A stretch of 61,370 nt of DNA, taken from the NCBI GenBank assembly GCA_963575655.1, contig CAUYTY010000033.1:1-61370 (forward strand). The letters run 5' to 3'. The position numbers and the translations under genes are program-made. The DNA comes from Gammaproteobacteria bacterium (lineage in GTDB: Bacteria > Pseudomonadota > Gammaproteobacteria > CAIRSR01). This document shows, piece after piece, positions 14,034 to 60,206 of this stretch; the stretch's first letter is position 1, and each line of letters begins with the position of its first letter. The notes under the pieces were generated by a model. The model did no database searches and had not been told where the DNA came from. It saw only the letters and a list, made by a program, of their open reading frames with translations.

Positions 14034-15158
14034 TCAGGAAAGTGAATTGACTAGCTCCCTGAAATAGCAGGCATTGGCCCGCAAATCGGGGCTGTGACCG
14101 AGCAGGCCGCCCCCCATTAAGAATATAACCTCCCGACCAAAAACCTCCATCAATTCGGGAATACGTTCTAAGGTCATCCCCCCACCCGGACAAGGAAATA
14201 TTGTCTTGATACTATCCATTGCCGTCTCGGTCCCAGCCACAATCGAGAAGCATTCTGCCTGGGAAAACGCGAAGCGCCCCCCATAGTTCGGAAAAATTAC
14301 CGCATCAGCCCCAGCCAATCGAGTCAATTGGCCGAGCAGGCTGAAATGGGACATACCATTTCCAGGGCTAGTCAGATAACTGCCCTGAAAGGCCGGGTGG
14401 CTAAGGATCGGGAGTCTCAACGATTCGTCCTTCGCCAAACAACGCATCGCGTCGAGCCCTGTCAGGGCTGGACAGATTAGCAGCCCACCGGCCGCTGCCT
14501 TTTTCGCAAAGTGTGCCCGCGCCACTATCTGATCAAATGGCGCCGTGACATTAGGAATATAAAGGGAGTGTTCACCAGTTTGGTGATTGGCCCGCGCTAC
14601 GGCATCAGCACAGCGTTGGACCCGCTCTTCAAATGGAGCAAAAGCCTGATTAGTCAATCCGTGGTCATCCTTGATCAGATCAATCCCCCCCAATGCCAAC
14701 TGGTAGGCCATCTCCGCCAATTGCACAGCGGAGAATCCCATGGGTTTGAGCGCGGCACACAATAGCGGACGTTTTGGTACCCCCAATAATTCCCGTAGGC
14801 CCACCCTACCCAATTGCGGTCCCGGAAATTTCGCGAAGAACGTTGGCGTCAAATCAAAGCGTAGCACCTGGATCCCTGGCAAGATACTAATATTGCCAAA
14901 GACTAGGTTAATAAACTGGGGCAATTCTGCTGCTGCTGTCTCTACGGCATAGCTCACGGTGACTTCAAATCCTGCCAGGCCGGGTTCCAGCCCCTCAATA
15001 CGGCCCACTACTTCATCGCGAATAAACCCAGCGGGAACTCCCTCCTCAGGGAGTTCAACGGTCTGTTCCAGACAAATGCGTTGGGCATTTATCCGAACCT
15101 GTGCCTCACTACCCGCCAAACCATAGACAACGCGGAATCGTTCGCCGCTCAGTGCCAT
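14034..15158 (-). CDS. RuBisCO-like protein (form IV)
   Basis: A 374-residue homologue of the RuBisCO large chain, shorter than the ~470 of true RuBisCO. Landmarks: ALKPMG with K138 (K175 region), GGIDLIKDDHGL with the carbamylation Lys K163 and metal ligand D165 but His166 in place of the Glu, H254 and H271 in the places of the active-site histidines, a PCPGGGM loop and MGGGLLGH, the phosphate-binding glycines. The loop 6 Lys (GKLEG in RuBisCO) is replaced by NYGGRFAF. It therefore cannot be a normal CO2-fixing enzyme; known relatives are enolases, isomerases or decarboxylases acting on phosphorylated sugar-type substrates. Its ATG overlaps the stop of the transketolase C-half (TAATG), so the three genes form one coupled operon. 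The substrate is likely related to transketolase chemistry. Confidence 0.9.
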   Translation of the reverse strand: MALSGERFRVVYGLAGSEAQVRINAQRICLEQTVELPEEGVPAGFIRDEVVGRIEGLEPGLAGFEVTVSYAVETAAAELPQFINLVFGNISILPGIQVLRFDLTPTFFAKFPGPQLGRVGLRELLGVPKRPLLCAALKPMGFSAVQLAEMAYQLALGGIDLIKDDHGLTNQAFAPFEERVQRCADAVARANHQTGEHSLYIPNVTAPFDQIVARAHFAKKAAAGGLLICPALTGLDAMRCLAKDESLRLPILSHPAFQGSYLTSPGNGMSHFSLLGQLTRLAGADAVIFPNYGGRFAFSQAECFSIVAGTETAMDSIKTIFPCPGGGMTLERIPELMEVFGREVIFLMGGGLLGHSPDLRANACYFRELVNSLS

Positions 15159-16165
15159 TACAATGCCTCCGCCTTGGCCGCGCTATGAACAGCAGTCAAA
15201 TAGGCGGTAGATAATTCCTCTGGGGAAATCTTAAAACATTTTCCCATCAGAACCTCTACTTGGGCAATCAGGGCCATAGCATCGAGATTATAGGTACGCA
15301 TCAGATAGGGGCGACTTCCCCCGTGGGCAAAGGTATCTTGTAATCCAATCCGAATGAGCCGTTTTCCAAGACCCGCCTCCGCCATACTTTCCGCTACCCG
15401 CGAACCCAGGCCACCATGGATAACGTGATTTTCCATGGTAATCACCCCGATCTTTGCCGATGCGGCCATGGCCACCGCCATAGTGCTATTGAATGGTTTC
15501 AGGGTGGAGACCTGTACATGCTGAATGGATACCCCGCGTTGTTGCAAAACGGGTATTGCCCGTAGCGCCTCTTCCGTGCAAATTCCGCAGGAGAATAACG
15601 TAATGTCCGCGCCCTGTGACAATATTCGTGGTTGCCCAAAAGACATTGGGTCAGTAGTGGCGAACAGTCGGGGGATCTCTCCGCGCAGCATTCGCACATA
15701 GACCGGCCCCTTAATTGCGTAGGCTACCTCTAATACTGACTCTACATCCGTCGCGTCGGCACATTCCAATATGGTCATATTGGGTAGTGCCGACATTATG
15801 GCGATATCCTCAATCGCCTGATGAGTCGCCCCACCGGGAGTAGTAATTCCGGGCAGAAATCCAAAGAACTTTACGGGCAGATTGGGATAGGCTACCGACA
15901 TTGCTACTTGGTCGTAGGCACGACGATAGATGAATACCGCAAAGGTATGAATTAATGGTATAAAACCCTCGCGCGCCAACCCCCCGGCCCAACTCACCAT
16001 ATTTTGCTCGGCGACTCCAAAGGACAGGAAACGATCGGGGTAACTCTTCTGAAAAAGATCTGCCTCCGTAGAGCTAGTCAGGTCCGCAGATAATAATAAT
16101 ACCTCGGGTTTATCTTTGGCCCAGTGTACGAGATTCTTGGCATGTACGCGGCTCAGGATGGCCAT
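15158..16165 (-). CDS. Transketolase C-terminal half (Pyr and C domains)
   Basis: A 335-residue protein with the pyrimidine-binding domain of transketolase (SADLTSSTEADLFQKSYPDR, then FGVAEQNMVSWAGGLAREG with the catalytic Glu, and GGATHQAIEDIAIM) and the C-terminal domain (ITMENHVIHGGLGSRVAE). The start is set at 16165, where ATG overlaps the TAA of the upstream half (TAATG); the same overlap joins it to the downstream RuBisCO-like gene. An ATG 18 bases further upstream is open but less likely. With its partner it should form a heteromeric thiamin-diphosphate ketol transferase. Such split halves are common for specialised transketolases in sugar-acid or ascorbate-type pathways, so this is probably not the housekeeping TktA. 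Confidence 0.9.
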   Translation of the reverse strand: MAILSRVHAKNLVHWAKDKPEVLLLSADLTSSTEADLFQKSYPDRFLSFGVAEQNMVSWAGGLAREGFIPLIHTFAVFIYRRAYDQVAMSVAYPNLPVKFFGFLPGITTPGGATHQAIEDIAIMSALPNMTILECADATDVESVLEVAYAIKGPVYVRMLRGEIPRLFATTDPMSFGQPRILSQGADITLFSCGICTEEALRAIPVLQQRGVSIQHVQVSTLKPFNSTMAVAMAASAKIGVITMENHVIHGGLGSRVAESMAEAGLGKRLIRIGLQDTFAHGGSRPYLMRTYNLDAMALIAQVEVLMGKCFKISPEELSTAYLTAVHSAAKAEAL

Positions 16166-17130
16166 TAATTGGTCCCTCCCCACTCGCTCCGAATGTTTTG
16201 GTAAAACGCCTCATAGGTCGCGAACTCTGCCGAGTCGATAAAGCGCAGATAGTGAAGTTTCGGTATTCGTTTTTCCAAGAGCGGCAGACCACGGCAGGGA
16301 TCGGTGTAGGCCAGAATAATAGTTGGCTGCCCCTCTGAGGAAACCTTGGTGGTTGCCGCGAGCGCCTTGAGGTCGTGACCATCGATGGTAATAACCCGTG
16401 CCCCAAAAGCGGTCAGCCGTTGGGCAAGTGGCTCCAGAGTCATTACTGTGGTCACCGCCCCATCACACTGTTGGCCGTTCATATCGACAATTGCCCACAG
16501 ATTATCTAGTCGGTGAAATCCTGCGGCCTGTACCGCCTCCCAATTCTGCCCTGATTGAAATTCTCCATCTGACATCATCAACCACACTCGACCGGATTCT
16601 CCGCGACGTTTGCGGGCCATGGCAATTCCAGCGCCTTGGCTTAATCCCTGCCCCAGTGACCCGGTCATGACTTCCATTCCGGGCGAGTGCTCCGCGCCAA
16701 TCATCTCGACGGTGCCACCATCTTGATTAAATTGGGTCATGCCGTCTGGATCCATTCGCCCGACTTCAACCAGCGTTGCATACAGAATCAAGGCGTACTG
16801 CGCGGGTGAAAGTATAAAGCGATCATAGTGTGGACCTTGCGGACCATTATAATATCCCCCGGACTGATAACGCGGATTTCGCGCCCCGGCCACGCCATTA
16901 AATGGGGGCGGCATGATTGGTGGAATCACTAATCCAAGATTCATCATTTGGGTATACAAAGCGGCAAACATCTCGGCACTGGAGCACGCCTGACTCATAT
17001 AGCCACCACGGTGGCGTAAGGTATGCTCCAATACCCGCAACCGGATCCGATTGGCAATGGATTGGGCGGCGGTCAACCAGGATTCTCCGCTATAGCGCGG
17101 GGCTGGGGAGGTTTTATTGATAGCTTGCAT
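16165..17130 (-). CDS. Transketolase N-terminal half (thiamin diphosphate-binding)
   Basis: About 321 residues from the ATG at 17130 (MQAINKTSP); an upstream ATG at 17196 would add 22 residues that look non-conserved. It carries HRGGYMSQACSSAEMFAALY, IGAEHSPGMEVMTGSLGQGL and the thiamin diphosphate/metal signature MSDGEFQSGQNWEAVQAAG...NLWAIVDMN. The family pattern is GDGE-x(~25)-N; here the first Gly is Ser. It forms the PP domain of the transketolase heterodimer and is translationally coupled to the C-terminal half. It is the first gene of the operon; the region upstream shows no clear promoter because the helicase gene ends only 93 bases away on the same strand. Confidence 0.88.
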   Translation of the reverse strand: MQAINKTSPAPRYSGESWLTAAQSIANRIRLRVLEHTLRHRGGYMSQACSSAEMFAALYTQMMNLGLVIPPIMPPPFNGVAGARNPRYQSGGYYNGPQGPHYDRFILSPAQYALILYATLVEVGRMDPDGMTQFNQDGGTVEMIGAEHSPGMEVMTGSLGQGLSQGAGIAMARKRRGESGRVWLMMSDGEFQSGQNWEAVQAAGFHRLDNLWAIVDMNGQQCDGAVTTVMTLEPLAQRLTAFGARVITIDGHDLKALAATTKVSSEGQPTIILAYTDPCRGLPLLEKRIPKLHYLRFIDSAEFATYEAFYQNIRSEWGGTN

Positions 17131-18901: not shown

Positions 18902-21900
18902 CTAAGATGTGATTTTCTCGGCAATAGTCTTGGACGAAACAATAGTTCGAATGAGACCACAAAAGTTAGGAAACAATTCCCGAATCTTGGCCGGAAGATG
19001 AAACTTGGCACTATCACTCCGTGCGAGCTTGGTTAACATATTGTCAAGAGTCGTCTCAAAACCAGCACCCTTGGCATGAACATACATCACGCTTAATGTT
19101 GCATGGGTGATGCTGTTTGCGATGTAAGATACGGCCACGATATCGTCAGGTTTTTGGAGAATCGAAATCTCGATGGGCGTTCGCGGTTTTACATGATGAT
19201 ACAGTATTACCTGATTAATTGCCTCTTTCTGCTTTAAGGCACCATCACCATTAGGAAACCACCGTTCCCACGCGGAATTAAAAATATCGGACCCATTTTT
19301 CTGATGAGTTAAATACTCATTAAACAACGCCTCGCCACCTCGTAAACCTCCCCGGTTAGGAGAAAAAGCCCCCCCGAACTCAATCATACCAAGATTGTGC
19401 CACAAACCAGCCAATGCATAAGTTAAATGCTCTTCTTGCGAGAGCTTTTTATTTCTAGCCCAAAACAACATCAGAATCATCACCGCAAGTGAATGGTAAA
19501 GCCAGGCTTTCTCTAGCTGATCCGGTGGCTCTTGTGGGAAACATGAACGAAAAACATCCATCAATAAATCAGGATTATTATTGGTAGCCTTCAGAAACGC
19601 CCCCATAACATCCACTGTTTGTTCCCATGTATTGTTTAAACCAAGTCTTGTCGCTAGCGGATATCGTGCTGGGAAGTCGGGAAATGGGCAGCATAAGACT
19701 TGAGATAATAGCTGACGGATCGCGTCCAGAGAACCCAAAGAAAATAGTCTAAGAAAATCTACTTTGGTGAATACCGCATCATAGGGGTAGCTGGTTTGTG
19801 GATTCAGAAGATTGTTCAAATAGGTGGAGGTTATCTCTTCTTCAGACAAACGATAATTGGCATTATAATAAATTGGCGGGAGAGCCATCCCCTGATGAAT
19901 CGGAAGCCTCCGCGGATCGATGCTCACTTGAAATGTCTGGGGATCGGTTGGCGTTAACCCAGAAGAAGGAGCATTACTCTCCGCAGAGGAAGTTAGTCCT
20001 CTTTGTAGAAAAACGTTAATTTCCGGAGGTAACGTAACCCCGTTGACTCGAAACAGATGGGTTAATAAATGAAATAATGGCAAAAAGCTTCTGCTCCTTT
20101 CATATATCCAACCCATATCTATTTCGGACAGGTTTTGTTTGAGTATTCTATCGGATATCTGATACGCCGTCGGAACATTTCCCTTGAAGAAACGTGCGCT
20201 TTCCTCGAGTCGCTCACTATCTTGAAGAATATTCGTCACTGGAATGGAATCAATATCAGCGTCAAGGGCATTCTCGTCTGGGTCAGAGAATCCGTCGGGA
20301 AACATCTCTTCTATAATTATGGAAATATCTTTAATGGATTGCGCCTTGGCCAATCTTCGTTCCCAGACTGCCGCCCAAAAGTCGAACTCGTTATAAAAAA
20401 CTTTATTCGCAAAGATCAATAGCTGGGGGGTGGTAGTTCGTAATGCTTTTTGTATCTTATCAATCTCTTTTGGCCAGAGGGGAGAGATCGCAGACAAACT
20501 CTCCGCCACGTGTCTCGCCACTGCTGAAATATCTCGTCGACCAAGCAGTTTTTGCATAGGTCTTAATGAGTAATCATTATCAACGATCTCTTTCGCATCA
20601 TGGGAGGGGCTCTCTAAGACAAAATTACTCCATTGCTTCAATGCTAACGTAGAAAACGGTGGTATCCCCCCACTTTTCTCAAAAATATATTTTGCGTCAT
20701 CTACTTTTCCATGCACCAATAATCCTGCAACCGTTAGTAAGCGAATATCCCCACCCACCAAACCAGCGGGAAAATCTTCTAGGTCAATTGGTTGGTTATA
20801 TTCATTTTCTTCTTGCAGATCAGTAAATAATCTTGCTAGAGATAATGCTTTTTGTGCGTTTAAAGTGTAAATAACCTCCCCGGTTTTATCGTGAACAAAC
20901 CATCCTACGGGAGGTTGCATGTTATGAAAACTACTGGGGGTCGCGTCGAACAATAATTGTTCGTCATCCGGGCCGAGGTTTTTCTTATCCGATAATGAAG
21001 ACCTGATATTCTTATGAAGTTCCGTGAGCACGGTAGAAACATTCAACTTAAACGCATTCTTTTCATTTACACTGGAAAGCAGATTGAGTTTCTCGGTAAA
21101 TAGTTTAAGAAATTTAGGGGGGGTTACAGAACGAAACTTGTTCAACTTCTTTTCGGAGATTCCGAAAGGACTTCTTATCATCGCTAAGAGTGATAGCAAG
21201 GTATCAATATCAGGAAGTGGTTCTTCCTGATGCCCCTTGATCAAGGAAGCGGCCTGATTGATCAATCCATAGGCCTCATCGGTAGTTGCATATGACGCGA
21301 TCTCACTAGCCGTAAGTGATGCATAGACCGGGGTTGATGAGGCATTAGCCTTCAGCGCATCAAACACGCTAACCGCGGTCACTTTTCCTTTAACGTTTAG
21401 ATAGAAGGCGGTTGCATTTTCCAAATACATTTGGAGGTAGTCGATTAACCCTTGCGGAGAAAATCGATTCACTCTTTGTAGGCGGAAAGATTGATTCGGT
21501 ATTCGCTGATATTGGGGATCGGCTAACACCGAAACTAAAATAGATTTACAACGTCTTAGGCTAGGTAGCGGTAGATCTAGCAATTCTTGCAAGTAAGGCC
21601 GTTGGCGTATCGATTCAATCAGTGAACCAATAAGTTCAGCCTCTGAACCATTATCAATAGCCAGAATGATGGCACGAAGGTCGGTGTCGTTCGTTCCTGG
21701 GAAATATTTCTCGATAATGTTTCTTAATTTTTCTGGCTCAAATTCAGATGCGCTCTTAGTGGCACCTATAATTTCCTTAATTTCCGAGGAAAAAATAGTT
21801 CTCAGCAAAGCCTCTTCGGAAAATAGAAATTGATTCTCGTAAAAAAAGATACCGATCTGAATAACGTTGGTGACCCGAACGGTTTGTAAAATTAGTTCTC

Positions 21901-22873
21901 TTGGTAGTGATGATTTCCTGTTCTTTATTTTAATCTCATCGTTTATTCCGTTTTTGTAAAATCTCGACAGAAATTCATTATTGGTGCTCGCCACCAACAT
22001 TAACTCGGCTTTGTTTTTTGCTTTTTCGGTAACGCCTGAGAAAATATCAAATAGCTGTCTGGCACAATATGGAGATATTTCAGGTAGTGGGGTTTGTGGA
22101 TCCAGCAAGTGTTTCGAAAATTCCACAAGGGCATTCTTTAGTTCGTCACCAAATATTGGCTCAATCTCCTCGGGTGATTCTTCCTTATCGAGTTCGTCCA
22201 GATCGGTTATATATCCTGGCGGGGCGGAATGGGCATGTTCATCCCCATCAACAGAGGCCAAGGCCATTAATATATAAACTAACCTGATACGGGAATAAGG
22301 ATCTTTTCTAAATATTTCAACAATTGTTCTAACCTCTTCTTTTTGTAGCGTCCGACGTTCTTCTTCCCTTAATTGCTGAATTTCCTGAGTGAATAACGAG
22401 AATTTTGTGGCACCAGATTGCAACGTTATAAAATAACCGATCTCTGATGTTGTTAGTGATGGTGTGGCTAGTTTCTCGTTCGTAATAATACTTGCCACTT
22501 GAGAATAAATGGTTTTAATAAAAGTATAATCGGTAGTTTTCTTGAAGAAACCAACGGCATCTCTTAGTGTTTTTCCAGAGCTGGAGATCTGACCAAAGGA
22601 AATTAACAAAGCTTGTTGATGTTCAGGCAAAATCGCTGCCCAATAATCTTCGAGTGGTAGGTCCGCACAGATGCGAAGGATATACGACTTGACGGCCTCT
22701 GCCTTAGATATGGATTCTTCAGTCTGCGGGTCTTGGCAATACATCCAATAAAGACCAAAGGATGCCATGACAGTAATTTGCGCTGAGTGCAGTGGCACGC
22801 TAATACCTGCCCACACTATCGTGTCCTGAGAAGAATTGATTGGAGTAACAACAGGTTCGCTACTAATACTCAT
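18902..22873 (-). CDS. Very large protein of unknown function with degenerate C-terminal HD/HDOD-like domain
   Basis: A 1323-residue, mostly helical protein that I do not recognise. No signal peptide or membrane segment is apparent. The last ~200 residues look like an HD/HDOD-type metal phosphohydrolase fold: H1127 in HSLAVMILMLF, GLWHNLG with H1159-N1160 where active enzymes have His-Asp, and ILYHHVKPRTP with H1226-H1227, followed by VSYIANSITHA, as in HDOD proteins. The His-Asp pair is lost, so it is probably non-catalytic and signalling. The rest gives no motif by eye. Codon use is clearly more AT-rich than in the operons on both sides. It lies downstream of another unknown gene on the same strand, with a 24 bp perfect palindrome between them, so the pair may be one accessory module. 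Confidence 0.85.
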   Translation of the reverse strand: MSISSEPVVTPINSSQDTIVWAGISVPLHSAQITVMASFGLYWMYCQDPQTEESISKAEAVKSYILRICADLPLEDYWAAILPEHQQALLISFGQISSSGKTLRDAVGFFKKTTDYTFIKTIYSQVASIITNEKLATPSLTTSEIGYFITLQSGATKFSLFTQEIQQLREEERRTLQKEEVRTIVEIFRKDPYSRIRLVYILMALASVDGDEHAHSAPPGYITDLDELDKEESPEEIEPIFGDELKNALVEFSKHLLDPQTPLPEISPYCARQLFDIFSGVTEKAKNKAELMLVASTNNEFLSRFYKNGINDEIKIKNRKSSLPRELILQTVRVTNVIQIGIFFYENQFLFSEEALLRTIFSSEIKEIIGATKSASEFEPEKLRNIIEKYFPGTNDTDLRAIILAIDNGSEAELIGSLIESIRQRPYLQELLDLPLPSLRRCKSILVSVLADPQYQRIPNQSFRLQRVNRFSPQGLIDYLQMYLENATAFYLNVKGKVTAVSVFDALKANASSTPVYASLTASEIASYATTDEAYGLINQAASLIKGHQEEPLPDIDTLLSLLAMIRSPFGISEKKLNKFRSVTPPKFLKLFTEKLNLLSSVNEKNAFKLNVSTVLTELHKNIRSSLSDKKNLGPDDEQLLFDATPSSFHNMQPPVGWFVHDKTGEVIYTLNAQKALSLARLFTDLQEENEYNQPIDLEDFPAGLVGGDIRLLTVAGLLVHGKVDDAKYIFEKSGGIPPFSTLALKQWSNFVLESPSHDAKEIVDNDYSLRPMQKLLGRRDISAVARHVAESLSAISPLWPKEIDKIQKALRTTTPQLLIFANKVFYNEFDFWAAVWERRLAKAQSIKDISIIIEEMFPDGFSDPDENALDADIDSIPVTNILQDSERLEESARFFKGNVPTAYQISDRILKQNLSEIDMGWIYERSRSFLPLFHLLTHLFRVNGVTLPPEINVFLQRGLTSSAESNAPSSGLTPTDPQTFQVSIDPRRLPIHQGMALPPIYYNANYRLSEEEITSTYLNNLLNPQTSYPYDAVFTKVDFLRLFSLGSLDAIRQLLSQVLCCPFPDFPARYPLATRLGLNNTWEQTVDVMGAFLKATNNNPDLLMDVFRSCFPQEPPDQLEKAWLYHSLAVMILMLFWARNKKLSQEEHLTYALAGLWHNLGMIEFGGAFSPNRGGLRGGEALFNEYLTHQKNGSDIFNSAWERWFPNGDGALKQKEAINQVILYHHVKPRTPIEISILQKPDDIVAVSYIANSITHATLSVMYVHAKGAGFETTLDNMLTKLARSDSAKFHLPAKIRELFPNFCGLIRTIVSSKTIAEKITS

Positions 22874-23126: not shown

Positions 23127-25091
23127 TTAAATCTTCTTTTCGGAAATATTTCTCAGAAGGTATTCAACGTTACTCCGAGGACATAACTCTGGGTATTTAT
23201 TCTCAATCTCTTTCCGGACGTTCATTTTTCTAAGAAGAGTTCCGAAGTTGTCGTTTTGGATACTGTCGCTACTATTGCCTGCTTGGTTATAGATGAAATC
23301 GTTAAGGAGAATAATAGACGACAATTCATCCCGATAGGTATTGCTAGTAACATTAGTTATAGTCTCTTTCTTTATTTCTATCGCAGGTGGTGGGATGACT
23401 GGTTGCGATTTTCTAGATCCGTGAAACTTAAAGGCACCGAATTCTAATTGGCACGGCTCCATTTTCTTTCTCCAGGGATGAGAAGAATCTGACTCGTTAC
23501 CGTGAGTGAATATAGCAGGGGGTTCTGCAACAGGTAGTACTGGTTCCTGTATCTTTTCTGATAAGTCGTCTATTTTTTTCTTGGTCTTTTGGGAAGGATT
23601 AAAAGAAGGGTGATCTCCAATTATTCGTTTCCATAATGCTGTTGCCGTTTGACGGTCGGAAAATTCCCCTGGGAGAAAATCTCCCGGCGCAAATAAATAG
23701 ACGTAGACGGGAGAATGTCCTTTATTGCTAACATTTAGCAGCAAAACCCCTTCCTTGTTATCCGCACGGATATCAAAGGGGCTCATAATCTCACCAGACT
23801 TACGTGTGATAAGAGAATCCTTGGAGCGACGATTGGTTGATACTGCCTTTTCTGAATAAGGTGCTACGGTTTTGGTCACCCCCAGCGTGAGATTATTATC
23901 GTCTCGATAACTTCCAGTCTTTGTGGAATAGAATTTTAGCCCAAATAATAGTTGCTCAGGCTCTGGGATCATTAGACAGTATAGCGATCCAGAATTAATA
24001 TAGGCTATAGTAAAAGGAGCGTAGATGATCGCCTGTTTATTAATCTGATGCATGTCCGGCATAATTTCTGGCAACCATTCCTGTTGATTTCTCTTTGAAA
24101 AATATTCTGAAAATTTCGAGATAACCTTCTGGGCAGGAAAATATATAGAAGTAGTTGATTCTTTGTTTATGAAATTTTTCAGAGAGTCGGTTAGCAGAAA
24201 CTGCATTCCCCCGATGGCTCTTAGCCTGTCGCGCTCCTCACTTCTTATTTTCTTAGAAAAATTAGAGATGTTCAACTTGATAAGATCGACGCTAGATCTT
24301 ACCTTATTGATAAAGTCGCCAGAGAGCGACGTTAATCCGGCTTCTTCTAGTTCCATCAATAGCGCAGAAACCATACTGTTCACGGATGTTATATCAGATA
24401 CGATCCCGGTATTGGCTTCATCGTTAATCTCAGATATTAGTGCAGACAGTGCAAACACGATAAGTTGTAGCAAGTCGGATAGTTGCAGGACGGATCTCTC
24501 TGGTCCAATCGTCTCAAAATAACTCTGAATCAATTTTGTTAAGCTGGACAAATAGACTTTTTCATGTTTCTTCCAGAAAACAATTCCTGCTCGTTCTTCT
24601 GTTTGTTTTTGTGCGGCGGACGGGGTCTGATAATTATCGTTGACAACGGGCGGATACAAAATAACAAAGTCTTCGTACTCCTCAAGCATACCTAACCGTA
24701 TAACAGAATCTTTTATTTTAGAGCTATCACCTATGGATGGTGAACCTTCTATCGAGAAAACCGCCTGATAGCAAACTACCTTTTTTAATAGTTCTTCTGT
24801 TTTTGTGAGAAAGTTAAATTTAGAATCCTTCTTGAGGCTTGCCAGTACTTTTGTGTAGGCACCCTGATTTTCGAGAAATAGATCCAAGACGCTCTTCTGC
24901 GTCCTGGACGCGAGGTTCTGACTCTTACCGCAAGAAATATAGTGGTATTGGAATTGTTTTCCGAAGTTGCCATTAAGATTGATTTTGGTTAGCGCCCAAA
25001 GAACACTGAGCTCCATACGGCTTAATCGCATGGAACCCTTGGTATATTCCTCCCATGCCGACTCTCCTCGTAGTTCTTCTTCATTAATCAT
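23127..25091 (-). CDS. Large protein of unknown function
   Basis: A 654-residue protein without a recognisable family. The N-terminal ~330 residues are predicted largely helical (ELSVLWALTKINLNGNF, then a long helix around SSLTKLIQSYFETIGPERSV and SDLLQLIVFALSALISEIND). A beta-rich middle part follows with YAPFTIAYINSGSLYCLMIP and NVSNKGHSPVYVYLFAPGDF, the latter resembling a DUF4384-like or jelly-type strand pair, but this is only an impression. Then come a Pro/Lys-rich linker and a short C-terminal helical end. The base composition is AT-rich like the next gene, 253 bases downstream on the same strand. It begins 247 bases after merR, in the place where other gammaproteobacteria usually carry tRNA-Pro. 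Confidence 0.75.
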   Translation of the reverse strand: MINEEELRGESAWEEYTKGSMRLSRMELSVLWALTKINLNGNFGKQFQYHYISCGKSQNLASRTQKSVLDLFLENQGAYTKVLASLKKDSKFNFLTKTEELLKKVVCYQAVFSIEGSPSIGDSSKIKDSVIRLGMLEEYEDFVILYPPVVNDNYQTPSAAQKQTEERAGIVFWKKHEKVYLSSLTKLIQSYFETIGPERSVLQLSDLLQLIVFALSALISEINDEANTGIVSDITSVNSMVSALLMELEEAGLTSLSGDFINKVRSSVDLIKLNISNFSKKIRSEERDRLRAIGGMQFLLTDSLKNFINKESTTSIYFPAQKVISKFSEYFSKRNQQEWLPEIMPDMHQINKQAIIYAPFTIAYINSGSLYCLMIPEPEQLLFGLKFYSTKTGSYRDDNNLTLGVTKTVAPYSEKAVSTNRRSKDSLITRKSGEIMSPFDIRADNKEGVLLLNVSNKGHSPVYVYLFAPGDFLPGEFSDRQTATALWKRIIGDHPSFNPSQKTKKKIDDLSEKIQEPVLPVAEPPAIFTHGNESDSSHPWRKKMEPCQLEFGAFKFHGSRKSQPVIPPPAIEIKKETITNVTSNTYRDELSSIILLNDFIYNQAGNSSDSIQNDNFGTLLRKMNVRKEIENKYPELCPRSNVEYLLRNISEKKI

Positions 25092-55196: not shown

Positions 55197-56340
55197 CTAA
55201 CCTGCGCGTTGGTTAGGGGACTCCAGCTAAATAGCATATTGGACGGATTCTTCTTTAAAAAGTTCTCTGACTTTCTCTGGCGATTTTTTTAAATCCTCTA
55301 AAAGTTGAGTAGCTTTATTTTTTAACTCCTCCACATTACGAATAAGGTGACGCGCAATTCCTTGTGTCTTAATATTGCTCCATACTAGCTCGACAGGATT
55401 AAGGTGTGGAGAATAGGTGGGAAGAAAGAATATTTTAACCTTTCCATTTGTCGTCTCCAGATATTCCTTAACTACTTTTGCATGATGGGCAGAATACCCG
55501 TCTGTTACAATATAGATGGGGCATGAATTCTCTTGAGCCAAAATTTTTAGATATTCAACAAACGCACCACCATTGAGCGATGAGGGACCTATTTGGAAAT
55601 GCATCTTTCCTTCAGAAGTTATCGCAGCGATCATATTTATGCGATAACGTCCACCAGTGGAGGGAATTATGGGAGTTAAACCTTCTAGCCCCCAAGTTGT
55701 ACCCGCGTGATAATCGGTGCGCGCCCCAGCCTCATCAAGAAAATAGATTATAGCACCCTCATTACTTGCCAACTCTTTGATTCTAGGAAACTCTTTGTTA
55801 ATCCAATTATCTACTGAAAATTGGTCCCTCTCTATCGCACGATATACTGGCCGTTGTGGAGTTAAATTAATGCGGCGCAAAAAACGGCCCACCGCGGAAC
55901 GACTCATGTAAATAGAAAATTTCCTCTCTATTAATGTCTTTATCATTTCAGTTGTCCATAAGACTGTCGAGAATTCAAAATCCAATGGGGTAAATGCGCA
56001 CAGCCAGAATACTAGTATTCCTTCTTGCTGTTCATTGATGAAGGATTTTCTTCCAGGGACAGGTTTCGCATTTAACGTAGCTAGACCCATCTCTTTTGCC
56101 TTCTTCACCCATTCGTACACCTTCGATCGGTGCATACCGAAAATCTCGCCCACCTCCCTAGGAGACATTCCTTTACGTACAGCTTTTACTGCTTGAAGCC
56201 TTATATACTCAAGGGTAGAGTGATCGAGAGAACGTCCATCAGAATTTTTCATAATTTTAGCAATTTCATGTCTTATTTTTTGGTTGGACTAATAATAGAT
56301 TATTTTTACTTGCTTGTCCCCTAACCAACGCGCAGGTTAG
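55197..56340 (-). mobile_element. IS630-family element, copy 1 (1144 bp)
   Basis: Terminal inverted repeats of 25 bp, perfect: CTAACCTGCGCGTTGGTTAG and five more bases at each end. TA is duplicated at both sides (55195-55196 and 56341-56342), as expected for IS630/Tc1-type insertion. The transposase gene fills the unit. It is identical to copy 2 except at least one base near 56009. Confidence 0.9.
55227..56252 (-). CDS. IS630-family transposase, copy 1
   Basis: A 341-residue transposase. N-terminal helix-turn-helix: RKGMSPREVGEIFGMHRSKVYEWVKKA, then a second DNA-binding part. DDE core: YFLDEAGARTDYHAGTTWGL (first Asp), IVTDGYSAHHAKVV (second Asp) and FLPTYSPHLNPVELVWSNIK (Glu), the typical IS630 ending. 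It is full length and looks functional. The protein is the same as in copy 2. Confidence 0.93.
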   Translation of the reverse strand: MKNSDGRSLDHSTLEYIRLQAVKAVRKGMSPREVGEIFGMHRSKVYEWVKKAKEMGLATLNAKPVPGRKSFINEQQEGILVFWLCAFTPLDFEFSTVLWTTEMIKTLIERKFSIYMSRSAVGRFLRRINLTPQRPVYRAIERDQFSVDNWINKEFPRIKELASNEGAIIYFLDEAGARTDYHAGTTWGLEGLTPIIPSTGGRYRINMIAAITSEGKMHFQIGPSSLNGGAFVEYLKILAQENSCPIYIVTDGYSAHHAKVVKEYLETTNGKVKIFFLPTYSPHLNPVELVWSNIKTQGIARHLIRNVEELKNKATQLLEDLKKSPEKVRELFKEESVQYAI

Positions 56341-59062: not shown

Positions 59063-60206
59063 CTAACCTGCGCGTTGGTTAGGGGACTCCAGCTAAATAG
59101 CATATTGGACGGATTCTTCTTTAAAAAGTTCTCTGACTTTCTCTGGCGATTTTTTTAAATCCTCTAAAAGTTGAGTAGCTTTATTTTTTAACTCCTCCAC
59201 ATTACGAATAAGGTGACGCGCAATTCCTTGTGTCTTAATATTGCTCCATACTAGCTCGACAGGATTAAGGTGTGGAGAATAGGTGGGAAGAAAGAATATT
59301 TTAACCTTTCCATTTGTCGTCTCCAGATATTCCTTAACTACTTTTGCATGATGGGCAGAATACCCGTCTGTTACAATATAGATGGGGCATGAATTCTCTT
59401 GAGCCAAAATTTTTAGATATTCAACAAACGCACCACCATTGAGCGATGAGGGACCTATTTGGAAATGCATCTTTCCTTCAGAAGTTATCGCAGCGATCAT
59501 ATTTATGCGATAACGTCCACCAGTGGAGGGAATTATGGGAGTTAAACCTTCTAGCCCCCAAGTTGTACCCGCGTGATAATCGGTGCGCGCCCCAGCCTCA
59601 TCAAGAAAATAGATTATAGCACCCTCATTACTTGCCAACTCTTTGATTCTAGGAAACTCTTTGTTAATCCAATTATCTACTGAAAATTGGTCCCTCTCTA
59701 TCGCACGATATACTGGCCGTTGTGGAGTTAAATTAATGCGGCGCAAAAAACGGCCCACCGCGGAACGACTCATGTAAATAGAAAATTTCCTCTCTATTAA
59801 TGTCTTTATCATTTCAGTTGTCCATAAGACTGTCGAGAATTCAAAATCCAATGGGGTAAATGCGCACAGCCAGAATACGAGTATTCCTTCTTGCTGTTCA
59901 TTGATGAAGGATTTTCTTCCAGGGACAGGTTTCGCATTTAACGTAGCTAGACCCATCTCTTTTGCCTTCTTCACCCATTCGTACACCTTCGATCGGTGCA
60001 TACCGAAAATCTCGCCCACCTCCCTAGGAGACATTCCTTTACGTACAGCTTTTACTGCTTGAAGCCTTATATACTCAAGGGTAGAGTGATCGAGAGAACG
60101 TCCATCAGAATTTTTCATAATTTTAGCAATTTCATGTCTTATTTTTTGGTTGGACTAATAATAGATTATTTTTACTTGCTTGTCCCCTAACCAACGCGCA
60201 GGTTAG
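59063..60206 (-). mobile_element. IS630-family element, copy 2 (1144 bp)
   Basis: Same length and same perfect 25 bp terminal inverted repeats as copy 1, with TA duplicated at both sides (59061-59062, 60207-60208). One synonymous base difference to copy 1 was found (ACG here versus ACT there in the GILVFW segment). The element sits beside, or within, a palindromic repeat: its right end abuts TAACCCAAGTTGCTACC at 60210. Confidence 0.9.
59093..60118 (-). CDS. IS630-family transposase, copy 2
   Basis: The 341-residue product is identical to that of copy 1, including the full DDE triad. High identity means very recent transposition or gene conversion. Confidence 0.93.
   Translation of the reverse strand: MKNSDGRSLDHSTLEYIRLQAVKAVRKGMSPREVGEIFGMHRSKVYEWVKKAKEMGLATLNAKPVPGRKSFINEQQEGILVFWLCAFTPLDFEFSTVLWTTEMIKTLIERKFSIYMSRSAVGRFLRRINLTPQRPVYRAIERDQFSVDNWINKEFPRIKELASNEGAIIYFLDEAGARTDYHAGTTWGLEGLTPIIPSTGGRYRINMIAAITSEGKMHFQIGPSSLNGGAFVEYLKILAQENSCPIYIVTDGYSAHHAKVVKEYLETTNGKVKIFFLPTYSPHLNPVELVWSNIKTQGIARHLIRNVEELKNKATQLLEDLKKSPEKVRELFKEESVQYAI

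Follow-up and report, generated by a model that had tools for sequence, protein, structure and literature searches.

A split transketolase and a RuBisCO-like protein (RLP), encoded by three overlapping genes, probably catalyze the final two steps of a salvage or catabolic branch for methylthioadenosine (MTA) that does not depend on oxygen. That the trio's pathway salvages MTR or a 5'-deoxyribose-type sugar is very likely; its placement there is well supported, and we infer the last chemical step. MTA, a toxic sulfur compound left over from S-adenosylmethionine, is produced by every polyamine-making cell and inhibits the enzymes that make it. Its disposal without the oxygen-dependent pathway is only partly known, and the trio would provide a specific answer for many anaerobes and purple sulfur bacteria. 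The RLP group is known, and its transketolase partner, for which no description was found in the open-access literature, looks like the undescribed part within that literature.

Gene order and conservation of the trio

In the window, i.e., the whole stretch of 61,370 nucleotides that was analyzed, the three genes are located on the minus strand. TktN (17130..16165, 321 aa) matches Pfam Transketolase_N (76.8 bits, 2e-21), TktC (16165..15158, 335 aa) matches Transket_pyr (110 bits, 1e-31) and Transketolase_C (59 bits, 5e-16), and the RLP, a member of the DeepYkr group (15158..14034, 374 aa), matches RuBisCO_large (118 bits). The TktN/TktC (16163..16167) and TktC/RLP (15156..15160) junctions, both on the minus strand, are TAATG stop/start overlaps of 1 nt, and the coordinates, frames, and overlaps given in the initial annotation were borne out by a check of the sequence. 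TAATG recurs at the TktC/RLP junction of six relatives from several phyla, and overlaps of 1 or 4 nt are frequent there among the relatives.

The neighbors in the window are a DEAD/ResIII helicase and an HhH-GPD DNA glycosylase. The earlier remark that no kinase or dehydrogenase is adjacent is hence correct for the window but misleading for the family, because many relatives have MtnK (a kinase) and MtnA (an isomerase) immediately ahead of the trio. Among 80 relatives, which were fetched by their RLP, TktC was located upstream of the RLP in 51 and a TktN piece in three more, with about 13 phyla represented. MtnK and/or MtnA are present in 15 of the TktC-RLP loci, often in the order MtnK-MtnA-TktN-TktC-RLP (MtnK model TIGR01767, 492 bits versus a cut-off of 275; MtnA, 434 bits versus 279). 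This conservation agrees with the initial proposal of one functional unit and, together with the distinct subfamily of the split enzyme, with that of a ketol enzyme dedicated to the substrate or product of the RLP. The first three RLP relatives of the same class (G035, G017, and G047) lacked an adjacent transketolase and spoke for a nonconserved trio, a view that was reversed by the wider scan: G035 harbors TktC elsewhere in its genome, and G017 and G047 have a cupin instead. On the RLP tree, the presence of TktC switches 12 times.

Group membership of the RuBisCO-like protein

The RLP belongs to the DeepYkr group and is predicted to be a 5-methylthioribulose-1-phosphate 1,3-isomerase. Its best PDB match by sequence is the Rhodopseudomonas palustris RLP 3qfw (8e-72; runner-up, 2e-47). 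In a fold search with an AlphaFold model (pLDDT 95.4 from 54 sequences, compared with only 57 for a 4-sequence version), the predicted structure likewise appeared closest to 3qfw (Z 46.1, rmsd 1.6 over 347 residues, 37% identity), with MtnW 2zvi tied at 45.9. K138, K163, D165, H166, H254, and R295 agree with 3qfw. The initial annotation had described K163, D165, H166 in the place of Glu, and the absence of the loop-6 Lys, and all of these are as described (loop-6 region, FPNYGGRF). The exchange of Glu for His marks the group, since the KDDH signature is found in 83 of 84 RLP relatives and in 3qfw, whereas MtnW has KDDE.

MtnW, the 2,3-diketo-5-methylthiopentyl-1-P enolase of methionine salvage, is also RuBisCO-like, but MtnW sequences form a separate clade in the RLP tree (support, 99/83). 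The window RLP groups with 3qfw and the cupin-linked RLPs, away from MtnW, with 3qfw itself being on a long branch of unsure position. The MtnW pathway requires MtnB, MtnX, and MtnD, and a search for strong matches found no MtnD in the window genome. An identity as MtnW was rejected on these grounds, on the signature, and on the score of model TIGR03332 (180 bits versus a cut-off of 514). Thus, of the two outcomes that the initial annotation had envisaged for the phylogeny, clustering with MtnW did not apply, and clustering with a known group did, namely, the MTRu-1-P isomerases. Within the DeepYkr group, RLP1 of R. palustris is a proven 5-methylthioribulose-1-P 1,3-isomerase, and its cupin has likewise been proven biochemically (PMC5893883).

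Active site of the split transketolase

Judged from its sequence, the split enzyme formed by TktN and TktC (TktNC) is a distinct transketolase subfamily. The ThDP/Mg residues D188 and N218 of TktN are invariant in 51 relatives, the catalytic Glu53 of TktC is also invariant, and S32, R161, and H115 are kept as well. In TktN, Y44 and I144 (or M143) stand where the canonical sugar-binding His residues are expected, and in TktC, L104 and G111 take the places of human H416 and D424. Expressed in human transketolase numbering for 51 to 55 sequences, H37 is replaced by Y, H110 by a hydrophobic residue (Phe in DXS), H416 by L, and D424 by G, and E366, D155, N185, S345, and R474 are retained. Measured against a classical transketolase, TktNC therefore has the ThDP/Mg residues and the catalytic Glu but not the sugar-binding H37, H110, H416, and D424, and it invariantly lacks the residues that read the C1-OH of the donor and the aldose acceptor. 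TktN additionally contains a family-specific, P/G-rich insert of about 28 residues (approximately residues 65 to 93). The missing phosphate-binding His (H416) is unexpected if the 5-phosphate donor is held as in a normal transketolase.

The same two-chain domain split is known from the transketolase of Carboxydothermus hydrogenoformans (6yaj and 6yak), which is the nearest solved structure to both halves. That enzyme keeps the canonical His/Asp sugar-binding residues, whereas in the trio enzyme they are replaced and TktN carries the extra insert. Split transketolases dedicated to a single catabolic pathway each are the apulose-4-phosphate transketolase AptA/AptB and the sulfo-transketolase SqwGH. 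To our knowledge, neither of them has a link to MtnK/MtnA or to a DeepYkr RLP.

Co-occurrence, proposed pathway, and alternatives

The RLP is placed in the salvage of MTR or 5'-deoxynucleosides because gene neighborhoods, tree, and co-occurrence all point there. MtnA was present in all 35 TktC-plus genomes, that of the window included, versus 9 of 14 control genomes, and the acireductone dioxygenase MtnD/ARD was absent from 33 of the 35, again including the window genome (strong matches only). An MTAP-like gene occurs in most TktC-plus genomes and is missing mainly where the locus contains MtnK. The window genome encodes both enzymes (mtnA, 452 bits; MTAP-like gene, 265 bits, just below the cut-off of 275), with MtnA located on another contig and linked to the trio by co-occurrence only.

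The MTA-isoprenoid shunt of Rhodospirillum rubrum and R. palustris (MtnP, MtnA, a DeepYkr RLP, and the cupin MTXu-5-P methylsulfurylase) has the same RLP group, signature, upstream enzymes, and oxygen independence. The DeepYkr RLPs of both species convert 5-methylthioribulose-1-P to 1-methylthioxylulose-5-P, from which the cupin of R. rubrum, whose gene comes after that of the RLP, then removes methanethiol to yield DXP. With R. palustris RLP1, MTXu-5-P and MTRu-5-P arise at a ratio of 3:1. The trio differs in having a split ThDP transketolase instead of the cupin and in not needing entry into isoprenoids. The window genome contains MtnA and an MTA phosphorylase-type enzyme but no member of the cupin methylsulfurylase family at E 1e-8, with a model that matches Rru_A2000 (3jzv) at 1e-22. 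TktC and this cupin are nearly mutually exclusive, the latter being present in 13 of 19 TktC-minus versus 1 of 35 TktC-plus genomes (Fisher p 3e-7). Weak matches in G060, G100, and G102 were set aside as other cupins (less than about 33% identity to Rru_A2000, or no match); counting them results in 4/35 (p 3e-5). Exceptions are six TktC-minus genomes without the cupin and the one TktC-plus genome with both. Of 12 tree-independent pairs, a median of 7 follows the exclusion versus 0 in the opposite direction (median sign-test p 0.016), and on well-supported branches only, there are 2 to 3 pairs versus 0, which is too few. TktNC probably acts on the RLP product in the place of the cupin. Since no Dxr match was found in 14 of the 35 TktC-plus genomes, an isoprenoid fate is not required. 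A function of TktNC as a stand-in for DXS was rejected, as genomes with TktNC and genomes without it can both have Dxs, and Dxr is also missing from many of the former.

In the proposed pathway, 5-methylthioribulose-1-phosphate would be supplied by the unlinked MTA phosphorylase-like enzyme and MtnA in the window genome, or by MtnK and MtnA in relatives, and the RLP would shift the carbonyl by 1,3-proton transfer to yield 1-methylthio-D-xylulose-5-phosphate. The ThDP of the split transketolase would then break C2-C3 and release glyceraldehyde-3-phosphate, which would leave 2-(methylthio)-1-hydroxyethylidene-ThDP on the enzyme. Beta-elimination would expel methanethiolate, and the acetyl-ThDP could be discharged as acetyl phosphate or acetate. 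Some relatives encode an Ald2-like aldolase that might draw on this sugar phosphate too, which speaks against the scheme. Phosphoketolase and sulfoacetaldehyde acetyltransferase (Xsc) reach acetyl-ThDP by beta-elimination from a ThDP adduct, with water and sulfite, respectively, as the leaving groups; the proposed chemistry is alike, but both enzymes represent different ThDP subfamilies, and the leaving group of the trio enzyme would be methanethiolate. We give the thiol elimination slightly less than an even chance, and somewhat more tentatively still, TktNC may be a new ThDP enzyme, a methylthio-phosphoketolase (1-methylthioxylulose-5-P + phosphate -> methanethiol + acetyl phosphate + glyceraldehyde-3-P). 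If so, at least 13 bacterial phyla would share a widespread, energy-yielding, oxygen-independent branch of MTA salvage. The transketolase family would gain a new reaction, and volatile methanethiol would have one more biological source.

TktNC might instead split the RLP product without thiol elimination, which we regard as rather unlikely; the C2 unit would leave as 2-methylthioacetaldehyde or go to an acceptor, and aldehyde dehydrogenases, reductases, or a microcompartment would handle the aldehyde. Several relatives have the trio or its partners inside bacterial microcompartment loci. Besides shell proteins, these loci encode an iron alcohol dehydrogenase, a PduL-type phosphotransacylase, and an acetylating acetaldehyde dehydrogenase (in L139, 718 bits versus a cut-off of 620), a set that would suit a volatile aldehyde. 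However, such genes are absent from the surroundings of most trio loci, Ald2 already accounts for the aldehyde in the microcompartment loci, and the exclusion with a thiol-releasing cupin suggests the same job for TktNC. Less probable again is a pathway for 5-deoxyribose from 5'-deoxyadenosine, in which the RLP would turn 5-deoxyribulose-1-P into DXP and TktNC would split the latter into glyceraldehyde-3-P plus either acetaldehyde or acetyl units. In DHAP shunts, 5-deoxyribose is likewise processed by MtnK and MtnA, many of the trio hosts are radical-SAM-rich anaerobes, Ald2-like aldolases occur in some of the loci, and the C1-OH-binding His is replaced by a hydrophobic residue as in DXS; yet this reading leaves the exclusion with a sulfur-removing cupin unexplained, and DXP would be directly useful in Dxr-bearing genomes.

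The initial annotation had favored an acid-sugar pathway in which a ketol transferase feeds or drains a phosphorylated keto-acid sugar, the substrate of the RLP; in an OiaX/OiaT- or apiose-type version, the RLP would decarboxylate this keto-acid. Apiose catabolism does comprise both split transketolases and RLPs (AptAB, OiaX, and OiaT), but the OiaX model NF042437 scored 85 bits versus a cut-off of 700, the neighbors are MtnK/MtnA rather than acid-sugar kinases or dehydrogenases, and the RLP sits with the MTRu-1-P isomerases, so that this proposal had to be abandoned as very improbable in favor of MTR or 5'-deoxynucleoside salvage. Most improbable of all is an ordinary housekeeping transketolase that adjoins the RLP by chance: general transketolase models do detect TktNC, but the pair has stayed with the RLP across about 13 phyla, its invariant sugar-binding residues are replaced, and the window genome already has a full-length transketolase, which is located beside Calvin-cycle genes (L118).

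Distribution and affiliation of the trio

The minus strand of the window encodes the two halves of a split transketolase (TktNC), i.e., TktN (17130-16165; Pfam Transketolase_N) and TktC (16165-15158; Transket_pyr and Transketolase_C), followed by a RuBisCO-like protein (RLP; 15158-14034; RuBisCO_large), with TAATG stop-start overlaps at both junctions, as described in the initial annotation. The trio is flanked by a codirectional DEAD/ResIII helicase gene upstream and an HhH-GPD glycosylase gene in convergent orientation, neither of which gives a hint of its function. The genome of the window (G000) further encodes a bona fide RuBisCO large subunit as well as a full-length transketolase on another contig, so its Calvin cycle set is distinct from the trio. 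A second, unrelated split transketolase pair (~28% identity to that of the trio) is located on contig C211 (locus L119:2995-4784), adjoining, as judged by eye, genes for a TPR protein and a radical-SAM-like protein. Elsewhere in the window, two big adjoining minus-strand ORFs (18902-22873 and 23127-25091; 1323 and 654 aa) lack a Pfam match at 1e-5, and two DDE_3 transposase ORFs of 341 aa each (55227-56252 and 59093-60118; ~4 kb apart) score identically with Pfam and are apparently copies of one insertion element.

Among 56 genomes, comprising that of the window and relatives nearly all of its class, only three more close relatives of the RLP were found, none of them adjoined by a transketolase. 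Screening 84,980 species genomes with an RLP alignment yielded 80 relatives (41-59% identity), 51 of which have TktC upstream, mostly right after TktN; a TktN piece occurs in three further loci. According to the record titles, the hosts belong to the Chloroflexota, Bacillota, Spirochaetota, Nitrospirota, Calditrichota, Pseudomonadota, Acidobacteriota, Elusimicrobiota, Myxococcota, Deinococcota, Planctomycetota, Actinomycetota, and Thermotogota. The TAATG overlap recurs in relatives as well. The trio is a real and widespread unit.

The nearest solved structure to the RLP is 3qfw of Rhodopseudomonas palustris (8e-72 by sequence; for the predicted model, pLDDT 95.4, a fold match of Z 46.1 with an rmsd of 1.6 over 347 residues), with the methionine salvage RLP MtnW as runner-up by sequence (2e-47) and tied by fold (Z 45.9). 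Entry 3qfw differs from the R. palustris rlp2 entry 2qyg, and we take it to be of the RLP1 type, on which its title is silent. The His166 highlighted previously is present but not an oddity, because the motif KDDH marks the RLP group (83 of 84 relatives and 3qfw); MtnW has KDDE and forms a separate clade (99/83) in a likelihood tree, in which the long 3qfw branch is loosely placed. R. palustris RLP1, which is of the DeepYkr type and homologous to the Rhodospirillum rubrum enzyme, converts 5-methylthioribulose-1-phosphate (MTRu-1-P) to 1-methylthioxylulose-5-phosphate (MTXu-5-P) with a kcat of 1.3 per s, and the cupin RPA2170 subsequently frees methanethiol (PMC5893883); the product of the R. 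rubrum counterpart of this cupin step is DXP. The RLP of the window belongs to this known group. The acid-sugar pathway that had been proposed for it was rejected, as the RLP did not pass the score test with the model of the acid-sugar RLP OiaX.

Salvage genes and the cupin-transketolase exclusion

The isomerase MtnA (TIGR00512, 434 bits versus a cut-off of 279) and the kinase MtnK (TIGR01767, 492 versus 275) are the standout neighbor families of the relatives' loci. One or both occur in 15 of the 80 RLP loci, and the order MtnK-MtnA-TktN-TktC-RLP is found in Anaerosolibacter (L035), Alicyclobacillus (L077), Acidimicrobiia (L087), Devosia (L094), and Thermotogae (L095); the loci also frequently contain ribose-type ABC transporters and regulators of the SorC/DeoR type. 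In whole-genome searches, MtnA was present in 35/35 genomes with TktC and 51/54 with a trio-type RLP versus 9/14 controls. Most RLP genomes have a methylthioadenosine (MTA) phosphorylase-type gene, and those lacking it mostly carry MtnK at the locus. For the oxygen-dependent acireductone dioxygenase MtnD, only 2 of 54 RLP genomes gave a strong match, many searched genomes being metagenome assembled, so that gene absences are soft. The search of G000 detected MtnA (contig C79) and an MTA phosphorylase-like gene (C4) but neither MtnD nor the cupin; MTRu-1-P accordingly needs an exit outside the classical pathway.

A profile built from cupins adjoining or fused to trio-type RLPs matches Rru_A2000 (3jzv), presumably the methanethiol-releasing enzyme of R. 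rubrum, at 1e-22. Within the 54 RLP genomes, the cupin is present in 13/19 without a TktC ortholog versus 1/35 with TktC (Fisher P = 3e-7; 4/35 and P = 3e-5 if three doubtful cupins are included). The RLP tree shows recurrent swaps between both states (TktC changes 12 times), e.g., within Chromatiaceae between Lamprocystis (transketolase) and Thiodictyon (cupin). In 12 phylogenetically independent pairs differing in TktC on the best tree, the cupin state is opposite in a median of 7 and the same in 0 (median P = 0.016); well-supported branches alone leave six pairs, too few for test power. We interpret this exclusion as one enzyme substituting for the other at a single pathway step.

An RLP with a C-terminal cupin fusion (L025:9038-10609) is encoded on contig C1 of the single-contig 2.4-Mb genome G047, in which Dxr was found and Dxs not matched; the MTA shunt may be its sole DXP source, fitting an open question in PMC10663253. 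In G000, dxr is intact and dxs homology is spread over four overlapping pieces in shifting frames (C224:11321-13119), representing a decayed gene or assembly errors.

Active site and proposed cleavage

TktN/TktC sequences (51 to 55) were aligned with human transketolase, the Carboxydothermus hydrogenoformans split enzyme (the closest solved structure), the G000 transketolase, and two DXS. The cofactor residues (human D155 and N185), catalytic Glu366, Ser345, and Arg474 are kept, and H37 (to Tyr), H416 (to Leu in 53/54), and D424 (to Gly) are invariantly replaced. The H110 position is hydrophobic (Ile144 or Met143, the alignment being uncertain by one residue); DXS, whose donor has a methyl there, carries Phe. 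In transketolase structures, the contacts are H110 to the C1-hydroxyl of the donor, D424 to the hydroxyl of the acceptor, and H416 to the phosphate of the substrate. The pocket changes would suit a donor that carries CH3S- where the C1-hydroxyl normally sits, with no aldose taking part as acceptor; this reading leaves the loss of H416 unaccounted for. A further feature of TktN is a conserved insertion of ~28 residues.

In the proposed pathway, the RLP would form MTXu-5-P from MTRu-1-P, as its homology to an enzyme of demonstrated activity suggests. The ThDP of TktNC would then attack C2 of MTXu-5-P, and C2-C3 cleavage would free glyceraldehyde-3-phosphate, as suggested by the exclusion with the cupin, the gene order, and the active-site changes. 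The remaining enamine would bear a beta methylthio leaving group; we infer from the chemistry that its expulsion could give acetyl-ThDP, for which phosphoketolase and Xsc are precedents, and phosphate or water would yield acetyl phosphate or acetate. The new element of this variant of a known pathway type would be the dedicated split transketolase in the cupin's stead; no earlier description was found in the open-access literature.

Apparent microcompartment loci and possible alternatives

Two alternatives to this thiol elimination are retained, and both draw on apparent methylthioribose/5-deoxyribose microcompartment loci, a type of which we know no description, from Anaerolineaceae, Lachnospiraceae, and Alkalispirochaeta (L138:917-18915, L141:6023-15000, L139:596-19501, and L142:48-14376). 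They combine MtnK, MtnA, an Ald2-like aldolase, a ribose-type ABC transporter, and the trio or parts of it with shell proteins (in L142 a EutN-type one alone) and acetylating acetaldehyde dehydrogenase, PduL, or an iron alcohol dehydrogenase. TktNC might release an aldehyde, in line with the acetylating dehydrogenase, PduL, and shell protein genes that accompany the trio genes in some relatives, or the substrate might be 5-deoxyribose, which MtnK/MtnA and the aldolase could serve. RbsD/FucU-type mutarotase-like genes adjoining trio genes at L099:4819-5277 (by eye) and L139:12809-13339 (87 bits with the L-fucose mutarotase model, under the cut-off) suggest the uptake of free sugar.
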